Assembly: GCA_947574085.1 (NCBI GenBank)
Contig: CANPIH010000005.1
Coordinates: 1 to 39,777 of the forward strand
Origin: an uncultured Mycoplasmatota bacterium
GTDB taxonomy: Bacteria > Bacillota_I > Bacilli_A > RF39 > UBA660
DNA: 39,777 bases
Direction of reading: 5' to 3'
A program made the position numbers and the translations under genes. The notes below the pieces were generated by a model. The model worked only from the letters and a program-made list of their open reading frames with translations. It made no database searches and was not told the origin of the DNA. Numbering within the stretch: position 1 is the first letter of the stretch; every line of letters starts with the position of its first letter. Shown piece after piece: positions 168-18,139 of this stretch.

Positions 168-1535
168 ATGATGAAAACAAGATTTATGATATTTCCTAAT
201 AAAAAAATGGATATTGAAGATTTAAGAGATGCTTTATTTTCTTATCTAATTGCAAAACATGATAAAGGCAAATTTGTTGTAACAGTAGAAAATTTTAATC
301 AAAATGTATCTGAAACTGAAATTAAAAACTGTATTTCTATTTTAGATTTTTTTGGCTTCCATTATGAAGAAATATTACCAAATAAAGAAAATATTTATAA
401 AGCGTATGCAGAAAAATTAGTGAAAAGTGGTAAAGCGTATTATTGTTTCTGTACGCAAGAAGAGCTAAATAAAAAACGAATGGAAGCGAGTGAAAAGAAG
501 ATTTCTTATCAATACGATAGAACGTGTAGAAATTTTCCAAAAGATGAGGCGAGACGTAAGATTTTAATTGAAGAAAATTATGTAATACGGCAAGCTATGC
601 CTAACGAAGGTCAAACAACATTTCATGATTTGGTTTATGGAGATATTACAACCTTAAATAGTTGCTTGGAGGATCAAATTTTAATAAAAAGCGATGGAAC
701 TCCTACATATAATTTTGCTAATGTAATAAATGATACATTCTTAAATATAACTCATGTAACCATGAGTGAAGATTTATTAACAAGTACACCTAAATATTTA
801 TTATTGTATGAAAATTTAGGGTTTTCAGTTCCAAAATTTATTCATTATCCAAAAATTATTACAAAATTTGAAAATATTTTAATGGATTTGTTAAACCAAG
901 GTTTTTTAAAAGAAGCTATTTTAAATTATATTGCTCTTTTGGGATGGAGTCCAAAATCCACGAAAGAATTTTTTTCTTTAGAAGAATTGATACTAAATTT
1001 TGATTACAATCATATAAATAAAAGACCAGCTATTTTTGATATTAAAAAATTAAAATGGTTTAATCATCAATATATAATGAAATTAAGTGATGAAGATTAT
1101 TTGGCTTTTGTAAGACCTTATTTAGAGCGATTTTATAATGTAGAAGATAAAAGTGAAGAATGGATTCATTATTTATTGTTATTGTTCAAAAATCAAATTA
1201 ATTTTGGTACTGAAATTGCTCTTACTACTCATATGTTTTTTACACCTCTTATAGATTTAGAAGAGAAAGAAGTTTCTAATTTAAAGGGGGATAATAAAAT
1301 AATGGAGGCATTAAAAATATTTAAAGAGGAAGTAAAAAAGACATCTGTTTGGAATGTAGATAGTATAAAAAAGGTTTTAGAGTTTGTAAAAGCAACAACG
1401 AACGCTACTGGGAAAACTTTGTATATGCCAATTCGTATTTCTGTTACAGGAAAAAAGCAAGGTCCTAATTTAATAGACTGCTTATATTTATTAGGGAAAG
1501 AAAAGATTTTAGAAAGATTAAACATTGTTGTTTAA
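168..1535 (+). CDS. Glutamyl-tRNA synthetase-like protein, predicted catalytically inactive (HIGH and KMSKS absent)
   Basis: Full-length GluRS architecture: CFCTQEEL, YDRTCRN, SDGTPTYNFANVINDTFLNITHV, AILNYIALLGWSP, and C-terminal GKTLYMPIRISVTGKKQGPNLIDCLYLLGKEKILERL. HIGH is replaced by DIED and the KMSKS segment is missing. Lies directly upstream of cysS. Confidence 0.85.
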   Translation: MMKTRFMIFPNKKMDIEDLRDALFSYLIAKHDKGKFVVTVENFNQNVSETEIKNCISILDFFGFHYEEILPNKENIYKAYAEKLVKSGKAYYCFCTQEELNKKRMEASEKKISYQYDRTCRNFPKDEARRKILIEENYVIRQAMPNEGQTTFHDLVYGDITTLNSCLEDQILIKSDGTPTYNFANVINDTFLNITHVTMSEDLLTSTPKYLLLYENLGFSVPKFIHYPKIITKFENILMDLLNQGFLKEAILNYIALLGWSPKSTKEFFSLEELILNFDYNHINKRPAIFDIKKLKWFNHQYIMKLSDEDYLAFVRPYLERFYNVEDKSEEWIHYLLLLFKNQINFGTEIALTTHMFFTPLIDLEEKEVSNLKGDNKIMEALKIFKEEVKKTSVWNVDSIKKVLEFVKATTNATGKTLYMPIRISVTGKKQGPNLIDCLYLLGKEKILERLNIVV

Positions 1536-1557
1536 AAATAGAGAAAGGAAACATAGT

Positions 1558-2868
1558 ATGAAAATATTTAATACTTTAACAAATCAATTAGAAGAATTTA
1601 TTCCTATTACTGATGGAGTTGTTAATATGTATGTTTGTGGACCAACGGTTTATAATTATGCTCATGTTGGAAATATGTATCCAGTAATTGTTTTTGATAT
1701 GGTATATCGTTATTTAACATATAAAGGATATAAAGTTAATTATGCGTCAAATTTTACGGATGTGGATGATAAAATCATTAAGGCAGCAATAGAGCTTTCC
1801 ACTACAGAAAAAGAAATTACTGATAAATTCATCAAAGCGTATTTAGAAGAACTCCAAGATTTAAATTGTTTAGAAATTGATTATAGACCTCGTGTAACAG
1901 AAACGATGGATAGTATTATAAATTTCATTTCTTTATTACTTGAAAAAGGATACGCTTACAAAAGCGGAGATGACGTTTATTTTAGAGTGAATAAAATTCT
2001 AGATTATGGTTGTTTATCCAAACAAAAATTAGAAAGTTTGGAACAAGGGAAACGAATTGAAATAGTAGATGAAAAAGAAAGCCCTTACGATTTTGTATTG
2101 TGGAAAAAAACTAGTGAAGGAATTACTTGGAACGCTCCTTTTGGAATAGGAAGACCTGGGTGGCATACTGAATGCGTTGTAATGATTCATGATATTTTTA
2201 AAGAAAAAATTGATATTCATGGTGGAGGCGTTGATTTGAAATTTCCTCATCATGAAAACGAAATAGCTCAAAGTAAAGCTGCATGGGATCATAACTTAGC
2301 TAATATATGGATGCATAATGGTCACATCATGGTAGAAGGCGAAAAGATGAGCAAGAGTTTAAATAATTTTATTTTAGCTAAAGATTTGAGAAAAGATTAT
2401 TCAAGTAATGTTATACGATTGGCTTTTTTAAAGAACCAATATCGAACTCCTCTTGATTTAACAAAAACTACATTTACAGAATGCGAAACTATTAATGAAA
2501 AAATTGAAAACGCTTTAAAACAAGCTCATACAAAAATAGAAATGTCTGCGATCGAAGTTGGAAAAGTTAAAAATGACGAAAAAATCGATGAAATTATGGA
2601 TAATGATTTTAATACACCTAATTTAATTACTTACCTTTTAGATTTACTAAAAGAATTAAATACCCAGATGAGAAATAACACAGATATTTCACAAACATAT
2701 GATAAAATATTATTAGTAAATTCGATATTAGGACTCAGCTATGAATTTAAAAAATTTAACGATGATGATAAAAAAATGTATCAGATTTGGTTAAAAGCTC
2801 GTAGTGATAAAGATTTTACAAAAGCAGATTTTTTAAGAGAAGAATTAATAAAAAGAAATATTTTATAA
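1558..2868 (+). CDS. cysS: Cysteinyl-tRNA synthetase
   Basis: CGPTVYNYAHVGN, GWHTECVVM, DIHGGGVDLKFPHHENE, GEKMSKSLNN. ATG at 1558 preceded by GAAAGGA; the track start at 1525 is a TTG inside the previous gene. Confidence 0.96.
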   Translation: MKIFNTLTNQLEEFIPITDGVVNMYVCGPTVYNYAHVGNMYPVIVFDMVYRYLTYKGYKVNYASNFTDVDDKIIKAAIELSTTEKEITDKFIKAYLEELQDLNCLEIDYRPRVTETMDSIINFISLLLEKGYAYKSGDDVYFRVNKILDYGCLSKQKLESLEQGKRIEIVDEKESPYDFVLWKKTSEGITWNAPFGIGRPGWHTECVVMIHDIFKEKIDIHGGGVDLKFPHHENEIAQSKAAWDHNLANIWMHNGHIMVEGEKMSKSLNNFILAKDLRKDYSSNVIRLAFLKNQYRTPLDLTKTTFTECETINEKIENALKQAHTKIEMSAIEVGKVKNDEKIDEIMDNDFNTPNLITYLLDLLKELNTQMRNNTDISQTYDKILLVNSILGLSYEFKKFNDDDKKMYQIWLKARSDKDFTKADFLREELIKRNIL

Positions 2869-2878
2869 GAGGTAGTCT

Positions 2879-3556
2879 ATGGATTTTATAATTTTAATTT
2901 TTATGCTTATTATTCCAGCTATTGCACAAATGGGAGTTACATCAAATTATAATAAATATAAAAATATTGAAAATAAGAAAAAAATAACAGGTTTTGAAGT
3001 AGCAAGAAAGATTTTAGATAAAAACGATTTAAAAGATATTTACATTGTAGAAATCAAAGGAAATTTAACTGATCATTACGATCCAAAACGAAAAGTAGTA
3101 CGTTTATCAAGCGATGTTTTTCATGGTTCAAGTATTGTAGCTTTATCGGTTGCGGCTCATGAATGTGGGCATGCTATTCAAGATAAAGTAGGCTATACTT
3201 ATTTGCGTATTCGAAGCCTTATTTTCCCTTTAGTTCATTTTGCTACAGGACTTTCTTACTTTGTTATTTTTTTAGGTCTCTTGATGGAATCTTTAAATAT
3301 AGTATGGTTGGGAATATTGCTAGTTGGAACAGGACTTATTTTTCAGTTAGTGACATTGCCAGTAGAATATGATGCAAGTAAAAGAGCAAAAATGGAAATA
3401 GAAAGTTTAGAATTAGCAAATAAGGAAGAGCAAGAAGGAATAGCTAAAATGCTTTCTGCTGCAGCAATGACCTATCTGGCGGGAGTAGTAACAAGTGCAT
3501 TAGAAATTTTAAGATTAGTTGTCATTTTTTTAGGAAATCAGAACGATAGAAGATAA
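2879..3556 (+). CDS. YugP-like zinc membrane metallopeptidase
   Basis: AAHECGHAIQDKVGY motif with several hydrophobic segments; typical of the neutral zinc metallopeptidase 2 family. Confidence 0.88.
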   Translation: MDFIILIFMLIIPAIAQMGVTSNYNKYKNIENKKKITGFEVARKILDKNDLKDIYIVEIKGNLTDHYDPKRKVVRLSSDVFHGSSIVALSVAAHECGHAIQDKVGYTYLRIRSLIFPLVHFATGLSYFVIFLGLLMESLNIVWLGILLVGTGLIFQLVTLPVEYDASKRAKMEIESLELANKEEQEGIAKMLSAAAMTYLAGVVTSALEILRLVVIFLGNQNDRR

Positions 3557-3623
3557 AAATTTTTAACAAAGAAGTAAAAATACTAAAATAAAATTAAAGG
3601 TATTAGAAAAAAGGGTGTGAAAT

Positions 3624-4385
3624 TTGAAAGCATTGATAACAGGAGCTAGTAGCGGAATTGGAAGAGATATTGCCTATTATTTGGCAAAACAAGGTTATGA
3701 TTTAATAATTGTGGCACGAAGAAAAGAAAGACTAGAAAAAATAAAAGAAAATGTAAAGGTAAAAGTGAAAATTGTTGTTTTAGACTTGCTAAATGAAAAA
3801 AATGTTTTTAAATTATATGAACAAGTAAAAAAAGAAAATATTGACATTCTAATAAATAATGCTGGATTTGGATTGTTTGGAATGTTTGACAAAACAGATT
3901 TAAAACGAGAACTTGAAATGATTGATTTAAATATTAAAGCTTATCATATCCTTACAAAATTATTTTTAAAAGACTTTAGGAAAAGAAATAGTGGTTATAT
4001 ATTAAATGTTTGTTCTAGTGCTGGCTTCTTGGCTGGACCTAGACTAAATACTTATTACGCTACTAAAAATTATATTACAAAATTGACAATGGCAATATAT
4101 GAAGAATTAAAACATCAAAAAATTCAGGTTCATATCAGTGCTTTGTGTCCTGGACCTGTTGCTACTGAATTTAATCAAGTGGCTCATGGCTTTTTTAACT
4201 TAAAAGAAATGTCTAGTAGTAAAGTAGCTAAATATGGAATTGACAAAATGTTTCAGAAAAAATTAATTATTGTTCCTGGATGGAGTGTAAAATTAGGCTT
4301 ATTTTTTAATCGTTTTATTCCTTGGAAATTGTCATTAGCAATTCTATATAAAATTCAAAAAAGAAAATATTCTGAAGAAAAATAA
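3624..4385 (+). CDS. Short-chain dehydrogenase/reductase
   Basis: TGASSGIG N-terminus, NNAG, YYATKNY (YxxxK); TTG start with AAGGGTG upstream. Confidence 0.92.
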   Translation: MKALITGASSGIGRDIAYYLAKQGYDLIIVARRKERLEKIKENVKVKVKIVVLDLLNEKNVFKLYEQVKKENIDILINNAGFGLFGMFDKTDLKRELEMIDLNIKAYHILTKLFLKDFRKRNSGYILNVCSSAGFLAGPRLNTYYATKNYITKLTMAIYEELKHQKIQVHISALCPGPVATEFNQVAHGFFNLKEMSSSKVAKYGIDKMFQKKLIIVPGWSVKLGLFFNRFIPWKLSLAILYKIQKRKYSEEK

Positions 4386-4420
4386 TTGTTTTATGGTATA
4401 CTATTTATAAGGTGGTTGTA

Positions 4421-5596
4421 GTGCAAAAATTAAAAAATAATAAAAGTCTTTGTTTGCTAATTTTCTTAGCTTTATTTGGTTTTTCAATTGGAGTATTTGA
4501 TAATTATCGTGAATTATGGATGAATGCCAATTCCTTATCCACTTCAACCATAAGTCATGTAATCAGTATTTCATGTGTGGTAACTGTATTTGTTTTATTT
4601 TATTTTACGATTCGGGTTTCTGCTAACAAATTAAAATGGGGAATTTGTATTTCGCTTGCGTGTAACATGATTACAGGAACAGCTTTGATATGTTTAAATG
4701 GCTCAGACAATTTCTTTTTGATTAAATTTTTAATGTTTTTCAATATAGCATTTAGCCAATTGATTCTTGCAAGTGTATATCCATTAATGATGAATATAAG
4801 CAAAGACGATGTAGTTTATACAAAAAAAATTTTTATTGAATCTTTATTTAGTAAACTAGGTTTTTTATTTGTAGCTATGCTTCTAGGAAAAACTATTTTT
4901 CATATTTTTGTGGATTACAATATATGCTTATTCCTATCTGTAGTCTTTAATTTTTTCGCTTTATTCTTATTAGTGTCTATTCAAATAAATGGTAGAAACA
5001 CTGCAAAATTTAATTTGCAAAAAACAATACGCTATTTTAATAAACATAAAATATTTTACTTTTTCTTATTTGTAAATTTCTTGGGAGATATGATTTGGGG
5101 AGCTATTTTTGGTATGCCTATGTTGCTTTTAACAAATAATTTAGATTTTTCTTCTAATTTTGCTAGCTTTTTAATTTTGGGTTTAGGAATATGTTCTAGT
5201 TTTTTATCAATGATTGTAGTTAAATATTTACGCTTTGATAATGAACATAAAAACTTTTTTGTTAAATTTGGAATTCGATTGCTTCTTTATGTTCTTGTTT
5301 TCATAACCAATAGCAAATTAATATTATTTATAACATTAATTTATTTATTAATAACAGATTGCTTGTATGGCTTTATTTTTGGTGGTTATTTTATTAATGC
5401 AATTGATGAAAAGTATTCTTTATTTTTAACAACCTTGAAATATTGCAGTAGTCTTTTGGGTAAAGCCGTAGGAACGTTTTTTTGCGGAATCGTATTTCAT
5501 TTCAATTTACGTATGTTTATCATACCAGCTTTAGTTATAAGTATTATTCATTACGTATTTGCTACTTTTTTAATTATTAAAAAAGAGAATTGTTAA
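4421..5596 (+). CDS. MFS-like multi-pass membrane transporter
   Basis: About 12 hydrophobic segments. Likely GTG start at 4421 after AAGGTGG (track start 4412). Confidence 0.7.
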   Translation: MQKLKNNKSLCLLIFLALFGFSIGVFDNYRELWMNANSLSTSTISHVISISCVVTVFVLFYFTIRVSANKLKWGICISLACNMITGTALICLNGSDNFFLIKFLMFFNIAFSQLILASVYPLMMNISKDDVVYTKKIFIESLFSKLGFLFVAMLLGKTIFHIFVDYNICLFLSVVFNFFALFLLVSIQINGRNTAKFNLQKTIRYFNKHKIFYFFLFVNFLGDMIWGAIFGMPMLLLTNNLDFSSNFASFLILGLGICSSFLSMIVVKYLRFDNEHKNFFVKFGIRLLLYVLVFITNSKLILFITLIYLLITDCLYGFIFGGYFINAIDEKYSLFLTTLKYCSSLLGKAVGTFFCGIVFHFNLRMFIIPALVISIIHYVFATFLIIKKENC

Positions 5597-16155: not shown

Positions 16156-16190
16156 TTCTGGCTGACTGTAGTCATAACAAGGAGGGCAAA

Positions 16191-18139
16191 ATGTTTAAAT
16201 TAATATCAAAATATAAACCAAGTGGAGACCAACCCCAAGCAATAGATAAGTTAGTAGAGGGAATTAATAATGGCAAGAAAGAGCAGGTTTTACTAGGAGC
16301 TACCGGGACTGGTAAGACTTTCACAATTGCCAATGTAATCGCAAAAACGAACAAGCCAACCCTTGTTTAACACACAATAAAACACTTGCTGGACAACTTT
16401 ATGCGGAACTCAAGGAGATATTCCCAGAAAATCACGTAGAGTATTTTGTTTCTTATTATGATTACTATCAACCTGAAGCCTATGTTCCCAGTAGTGACAC
16501 TTATATTGAAAAAGATTCTTCTATTAATGATGAAATAGATGAATTGCGCCATGCGGCTACTTCTTCGCTAATCAATAATCCTGATACAATTGTAGTATCT
16601 AGTGTTTCTTGTATTTATGGTATAGGGGAAAAAGAAGAATATATTAACAAAATGTTAATTTTAACGGTTGGAGACACCATAAATAGAAATACGATTATTA
16701 ATAAATTAGTCGATATGACGTATGAACGAAGTGATATGGATTTTCATCGTGGAACTTTTCGGGTACGTGGAGATGTTATTGACATTGTTCCAATAAATGA
16801 GCATGCAAATGGTATTCGTATTGAATTGTTTGGGGATGAAGTTGAACGTATTTATAGTTTTGATCCAGTTACAGGAGCCATTGTTCAAAACAAAAAAACG
16901 ATAACAATATCTCCAGCCAGTCACTTTGTTACAAGTAATGAAAAGATGCAAGAAGCTATAAAGCGAATTGAAGCAGAACTTGAAGTTCGATTAGATGAAT
17001 TAAAAAAAGATAATAAGTTATTAGAAGAACAAAGACTTCGCGAGCGAACGCTTTACGATTTAGAGATGTTAAAAGAAACAGGCTTTTGCAATGGAGTAGA
17101 AAATTATTCAAGACACTTAGCGTTACGAGATAAAGGAGAAACTCCTACTTGTTTAATTGATTTTTTTCCCCAAGACTTTTTACTTGTTGTGGATGAATCT
17201 CATGTAACTTTACCACAAGTTCGAGGAATGTATAATGGAGATAGAATGAGAAAACAAACTCTTGTGGATTATGGGTTTCGCCTTCCTAGCGCTTTAGACA
17301 ACCGTCCATTAAAGTATGAAGAATTTGAAAATAAAATTAATCAAGCTATTTATGTATCTGCTACACCTGGTGATTACGAATTAGAACGTACTCAAGGAAA
17401 ATTTATTGAACAAATAATTCGTCCGACTGGTCTTTTAGATCCGACCATTGAAATAAAAGCAACTGAGGGTCAAATTGATGATATAATTAACGAAATTCAA
17501 ATACGTAAAGAAAAAAACGAAAGAGTTTTAATTACAACATTAACTATTCGTATGAGTGAAGAATTAACAAATTATTTAAAAGAAATGAATATCAAAGTAG
17601 CTTATTTGCATAGTGAAATTAAAACTTTGGAACGACTTAAGATTATCCAAGAGCTTCGTTTGGGAATTTATGATTGTGTAGTAGGCATCAATTTACTTCG
17701 TGAAGGATTAGACATTCCAGAAGTAAGTTTAATATGTATTTTAGATGCTGATAAACAAGGTTTTTTGCGAAGCAGTAGAAGTCTTATTCAAACAATTGGA
17801 CGAGCTGCTCGAAATGCAAATGGACATGTTATTTTATACGCTGATACTCTTTCTGAAGCTATGGAATACGCTATAAAAGAAACAAAAAGACGTCGAGAAA
17901 TTCAGGAAACATTTAATCAGCAGAATGGTATTATACCAAAAACAATTGAAAAAGAAATTAAAGAAGTTATCAGTAACCAAATAGATGAAAATTCCAAAAA
18001 AGAAGTAAAAATGAGCAAAAAGGAAAAAGAGCAATATATGCTTCGAATAGAAGAAGAAATGAAAAAAGCTGCAAAAAATTTGGATTTTGAGCGTGCTATG
18101 GAGTTAAGAAACATATTATTTGAAATGAAAAGCGAATAA
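16191..18139 (+). pseudogene. uvrB: Excinuclease ABC subunit B, interrupted by a 1-nt frameshift
   Basis: ATG 16191 (AAGGAGG upstream): [24 protein letters not shown]...[24 protein letters not shown]. Coding resumes one frame over as [52 protein letters not shown] and stays open to 18139. Confidence 0.93.

Follow-up and report, generated by a model that had tools for sequence, protein, structure and literature searches.

The stretch of DNA studied here raises the question of what a glutamyl-tRNA synthetase gene is kept for once both class I signatures, HIGH and KMSKS, have disappeared from it, and of which enzyme then supplies the cell with Glu-tRNA. The window, i.e., the whole stretch analysed (39,777 nucleotides), is the entire contig C5 of genome G000, a metagenome genome of 1.36 Mb in 129 contigs that is 86% complete, and most of the genomes compared with it are likewise metagenome-assembled. 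The features on which the analysis bears are the following.

168–1535, + strand: pseudo-GluRS (hereafter GluRS-S), 455 residues, full GluRS scaffold without HIGH and KMSKS (TIGR00464, alignment, AF2, Foldseek)
192–227, + strand: former HIGH region, F9-P-N-K12-K-M-D15-I-E-D18-L-R20 (alignment on Tth GluRS)
444–527, + strand: retained CxCx20Yx3C motif (C93, C95, Y116, C120), part of a putative zinc-binding domain within the acceptor-binding region (motif as defined in PMC4381286)
762–764, + strand: M199 where Tth has the catalytic-site Arg R205 (alignment; private to G000 and G006)
852–890, + strand: truncated loop at the KISKR site, K-I-I-T-K-F-E-N-I-L-M-D, nine residues shorter (alignment)
1113–1526, + strand: retained anticodon-binding domain (PF19269 match; 94% of the 16 family-invariant residues in the distal half kept)
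1558–2868, + strand: cysS, encoding a CysRS of 436 residues with KMSKS intact, directly 3' of GluRS-S (TIGR00435, 483 bits)

The gltX-like gene and its catalytic motifs

The GluRS-S reading frame starts with ATG, contains no internal stop and is immediately preceded by the SD-like GAAGGAAG. Against TIGR00464 (gltX_bact), we observed a score of 394 bits over profile positions 2–464 of 470 (cut-off 290), and both PF00749 and PF19269 matched, as in an end-to-end GltX scaffold. The closest solved relative was the B. burgdorferi GluRS 4gri (E 5e-68), which was also the top solved GluRS in a Foldseek search (TM 0.89) with an AF2 model that is confident over the whole length (pLDDT 91.4, pTM 0.85). 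The preliminary description of this locus had claimed a GluRS scaffold conserved end to end, and these results bear it out. GluRS-S thus resembles bacterial GltX in its full-length fold, its complete set of domains and its clpC-gltX-cysS place, and differs from it in the absence of HIGH and of the KMSKS loop and in the replacement of ATP-site residues, so that glutamate activation is not expected. The score far above the TIGR00464 cut-off also carries a warning for annotation, since it labels this gene a working glutamate--tRNA ligase.

To describe the losses, we aligned GluRS-S with 42 relatives and with T. thermophilus GluRS (Tth numbering; sequence checked against 1j09); the catalytic and contact roles given to Tth residues are those that we take from general knowledge of the T. 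thermophilus structure. In the window gene, H15-V-G-T18 is replaced by D15-I-E-D18 (nucleotides 210–221), S9 by F, G12 by K and E208/W209 by D/L. The KISKR loop (Tth 243–247) is missing, nine columns being absent between ITKF and ENIL in comparison with intact relatives. Both the loss of HIGH and a KMSKS segment about nine residues short had been reported in the preliminary description and are confirmed on this alignment. The further claim of a conserved Arg changed to Met stood in part: M199 does occupy the R205 site, but Met is found there only in G000, the window gene, and in its sister G006, and other copies that have lost the motifs (dead copies) carry S, K or still R. Because this change is restricted to two genomes, it is the losses of HIGH and KMSKS that are the traits common to dead copies. 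The residues flanking the lost motifs align well, which excludes a frame or alignment artefact. From these replacements, we infer that GluRS-S does not activate glutamate. R5, Y187 and often E41/N191, which we take to be the glutamate contacts, are kept in dead GluRS-S, so that some residual binding of Glu or Glu-tRNA may be possible.

The gene also lies in the usual gltX-cysS position, as had been stated: cysS follows directly, the order clpC-like gene, GluRS-S, cysS was found in G006 and G014, and the CysRS gene adjoins GluRS-S in most of the genus genomes fetched. The clpC-gltX-cysS order is the classical Bacillota neighbourhood of gltX. Since GluRS-S sits in this place, the simplest view is that the ancestral gene is the dead one and that the working enzyme is encoded by a paralogue. 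At 15 GluRS-S loci, no Rfam match to a T-box or other leader RNA was obtained.

Motif loss among relatives and selection on the dead copies

GluRS-S was detected in 18 of the 22 genomes of the window's genus. A GluRS without the HIGH/KMSKS motifs is carried by 13 genomes belonging to about a dozen species, which excludes the alternative that the losses are private to one decaying assembly. All 13 dead copies have D or T at position 15. Ten of them (G000, G004, G005, G006, G007, G010, G014, G016, G017 and G018) have lost both HIGH and KMSKS, with the KISKR loop deleted. In G021 and G197 the motifs are lost with a loop that is present yet degenerate, and in G032, from a different genus, HIGH is lost and the loop is shortened. 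G004 has a very divergent copy. The genome G197 is classified in a different genus, yet its GluRS-S gene falls within the clade of the window's genus, a placement possibly due to mis-binning or transfer. By contrast with these dead copies, GluRS-S is intact in G001, G008, G012 and G015, and partly eroded or altered in G011, G019, G020, G078 and G212. The copies of G078 and G212 (L173, L174) have HIGH and KISKR intact, but Cys at R5 of the glutamate site, which is possibly a different path of erosion. Species by species, these genomes form a natural series that begins with an intact GluRS, passes through copies with eroded motifs and ends in a protein that is dead yet conserved. A likely replacement enzyme is identified, and the series makes the residual use of a non-catalytic aminoacyl-tRNA synthetase directly testable in bacteria.

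In a gene tree built without the motif columns, the ten dead genes formed one supported clade (100/99), with G021 and G197 nearby and G032 separate, and this tree requires three changes for the loss of the motifs. A single clade was rejected neither for 12 dead genes (AU test, p = 0.089) nor for all 13 (p = 0.11). The motifs were lost independently one to three times.

We then estimated selection by maximum-likelihood pairwise codon fits; because most dS values were saturated, ratios are quoted for two pairs of genomes. For G014–G018, w was 0.09 at a dS of 0.77 (2dlnL 171 against w = 1), and for G021–G197, w was 0.078 at a dS of 1.4 (2dlnL 247 against w = 1). No premature stop or frameshift was found in the 13 dead copies, in comparison with at least 16 premature stops expected per lineage in a simple neutral simulation at the observed divergences. 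GluRS-S is under purifying selection after the loss of its motifs. The dN/dS comparison proposed in the preliminary description thus gave, in the two least saturated pairs, values in agreement with its view of a retained gene.

These values bear on the reading of GluRS-S as a redundant gene in slow decay, on its way to being lost and with a constraint that is merely left over. The existence of a second GluRS in the relatives is in line with such a decay, as are the failure to detect GluRS-S in four genomes of the genus and in most of the family, the divergence of the G004 copy, and a dN about 2–3.4 times that of CysRS or GluRS-L (the second enzyme, see below) in most matching genome pairs. However, w remains at about 0.08–0.09 between species that share the dead form, the 13 copies are free of stops and frameshifts, new residues have been fixed and conserved, and the fold is predicted at high confidence. 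We therefore regard slow decay as very unlikely.

A second, intact GluRS

The relatives contain a second PF00749 protein of about 550 residues, a divergent GluRS that we call GluRS-L. In scans of seven members of the family and class, it scored 291–327 bits against gltX_bact, above the cut-off. An identification as GlnRS was considered and rejected, the NCBIfam profiles identifying a divergent GltX. All of the 33 GluRS-L sequences keep R5, S9, G12, H15, G17, E41, R205, E208 and W209 together with a K-x-S-K-R loop. A complete GluRS-L is carried by nine of the 13 genomes with a dead GluRS-S, and pieces of it truncated by the contig end were found in G018 and G032; G000 yielded none, and G197 is left out of these counts. 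Many genomes of the family have GluRS-L only and some have an intact GluRS-S only, so that each kind is apparently able to serve alone. Four genomes of the genus carry GluRS-L with no detected GluRS-S, and the dead protein is therefore probably not indispensable to GluRS-L or to GatCAB. GatB is near-universal among the sampled members of the family and present in the window's genome, as expected where a GluRS also feeds tRNA-Gln. We did not find gatB in G004 and G016, which are both about 90% complete and both carry a dead GluRS-S. As a separate observation, the zinc ligands are lost from the active GluRS-L of the window's genus (loci L134–L171) and kept in the GluRS-L of several other genera. 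The dead GluRS-S as a required complement of the zinc-less GluRS-L was rejected, because genomes without GluRS-S carry an equally zinc-less GluRS-L.

The preliminary description had predicted that a genuine GluRS is encoded elsewhere and had proposed a search for a second gltX in the whole genome. This prediction agrees with the intact GluRS-L of the relatives and could be upheld only in part for the window's own assembly, where we recovered a single PF00749 gene, and therefore one gltX, from a genome that is 86% complete. Nor did G000 yield the two neighbours that GluRS-L has in relatives, and the absence of all three fits an incomplete assembly. A clean assembly gap was not demonstrable, as the nearest syntenic contig, C54, is possibly foreign or transferred. 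On this contig, positions 1280–4680 (L198) share 97.6% DNA identity with G006 over 3.4 kb next to an integrase-like stretch, although the GluRS-S of the window and that of G006 share just 68% identity; the similarity may stem from a mixture of strains, from contamination or from a recent transfer.

The recovery of a single gltX from this MAG, together with purifying selection, is what would be expected if GluRS-S still charged tRNA by a non-canonical binding of ATP and were the working GluRS of the window's species. We consider this extremely improbable, as H15, G17, S9, G12, E208/W209 and the entire KISKR loop are gone, nine well-assembled relatives with the dead form have an intact GluRS-L, and the neighbours of GluRS-L are missing too from a MAG of 86% completeness. 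We strongly infer that GluRS-L took over the glutamylation of tRNA-Glu, and with GatCAB it would have taken over the supply for tRNA-Gln. The ATP-binding machinery of the ancestral GluRS would then have been lost because an intact second enzyme appears to do its job.

Retained domains and possible function

We next compared the retention of individual domains, using as a baseline the columns with a conservation of 95% or more among 23 intact relatives. Of these residues, the acceptor-binding domain of the window gene retains 90%, its stem-contact fold 87%, and its two anticodon-binding parts 83% and 94%. The figures are lower for the N-terminal Rossmann part (41%), the C-terminal Rossmann part (63%) and the KMSKS loop (25%). 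Non-catalytic domains are about as conserved among the genes of the dead clade as among the intact genes of the genus, and active-site segments clearly less. On this alignment the loss is selective, the ATP site being gone and the tRNA-side domains retained. The CxCx20Yx3C/H motif is kept in 11 of the 13 dead proteins, with His as the last ligand in four of these; in GluRS, the domain with this motif touches the acceptor end, and a link between it and GatCAB-dependent transamidation has been drawn (PMC4381286). Nine core dead proteins share an invariant K12 and D15, and D15 also occurs in G021 and G197, so that the former ATP site has gained a conservation pattern of its own. In dead GluRS-S, the acceptor and anticodon domains have not become consistently more basic in overall charge.

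Our best explanation, to which we give a probability of roughly 0.55, is that GluRS-S is a retained tRNA-binding pseudo-synthetase, accessory or regulatory, made from the ancestral gltX after GluRS-L took over catalysis. The ATP-activating site of the gltX in the clpC-gltX-cysS place has been dismantled, and the gene is held by purifying selection. The dead protein would still bind tRNA-Glu/tRNA-Gln, with its stem-contact and anticodon domains and with the zinc-motif domain for the acceptor arm, and its role would be that of an accessory or regulator without catalysis, such as a partner that presents tRNA to GluRS-L; GatCAB would be another possible partner. Binding of tRNA through the kept domains is favoured because of which residues are kept, and we hold it, with the accessory or regulatory role, at moderate confidence. 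The earlier claim of a retained pseudo-synthetase agrees with the 13 genomes, the strong purifying selection and the intact GluRS-L of relatives. More tentatively, and at somewhat less than even odds, GluRS may have been divided in this lineage between the catalytic GluRS-L and a full-length protein without catalysis, derived from the gltX in the ancestral place and dedicated to binding tRNA-Glu/Gln as a partner or regulator.

The closest functional precedent, by analogy, is SLIMP, a SerRS paralogue of animal mitochondria in which the active site is ablated and the tRNA-recognition domain retained, and whose partner is the active SerRS (PMC10570016). As predicted for GluRS-S, one paralogue is ablated with tRNA recognition retained and the other is catalytic; SLIMP differs as a class II SerRS derivative that forms a heterodimer in animal mitochondria. 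Among bacteria, HisZ is a HisRS paralogue without adenylation activity that has been kept and regulates HisG (PMC9437257). On this model, GluRS-S could have left tRNA and now partner another protein, allosterically or in its assembly, with the scaffold kept for protein contact or glutamate sensing. The newly conserved K12 and D15 of the former ATP site, suggestive of a new constraint, as well as the largely kept R5/Y187/E41, point in this direction. HisZ is devoid of the anticodon-binding domain, which GluRS-S has retained. The anticodon and acceptor domains are indeed better kept than the active site, although a pure protein-contact or sensor role would not need them, and no candidate partner gene was found, so that we judge a HisZ-like role rather unlikely.

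A more specific form of the tRNA-binding explanation is that GluRS-S binds tRNA-Gln/Glu-tRNA-Gln and is retained as a transamidosome scaffold for GatCAB, with catalysis by GluRS-L. The zinc-binding domain of GluRS has been argued to serve GatCAB-linked transamidation (PMC4381286), the dead protein has the exact zinc motif as opposed to the GluRS-L of the genus, and the window's genome encodes GatB. However, GatB and the same zinc-less GluRS-L also occur in those genomes of the genus that have no GluRS-S, and the two genomes in which GatB was not found have a dead GluRS-S. Such a scaffold seems quite unlikely to us.

Other GluRS paralogues offer a weaker likeness. Two GluRS per genome also occur with the GluRS2 paralogues (Helicobacter type; T. 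maritima), and one T. maritima copy, GluRS2, has been described as inactive (PMC3927822). The T. maritima chain in 2o5r keeps both motifs (APSPTG..HVG and KKLSKR), whereas GluRS-S, in the ancestral place, lost both and so has no intact class I motifs such as define GluRS2 together with tRNA-Gln-specific charging; the literature and the PDB label the T. maritima copies differently, and we do not equate the inactive one with 2o5r. GluQ-RS (YadB) is also a GluRS paralogue, with the catalytic domain alone and catalytic, and GluRS-S is its opposite: it keeps the anticodon domain, has lost the motifs and scores 116 bits against TIGR03838 (cut-off 277). YadB is the only GluRS paralogue listed with a new function in the review PMC9437257. 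A role as tRNA-binding partner or regulator is absent from the GluRS paralogue roles given there, within an open-access literature in which an earlier description may have been missed. By analogy, GluRS-S may be placed with the non-catalytic proteins derived from aminoacyl-tRNA synthetases, the site being lost, the gene selected and an active paralogue present in relatives (none recovered in G000).

Two further observations concern other genes of the window. The uvrB gene (about 16180–18139) has a frameshift near 16,350–16,370, which leaves the Walker A part in a different frame from the remainder and may reflect an assembly error or a broken gene. Within the genus, the cysS that adjoins the dead gltX comes in two very different versions of about 40% identity (window 1558–2868; L115, L121, L124, L125), apparently even between the close sisters G014 and G018, and this pattern suggests that cysS has been replaced in place within the genus.
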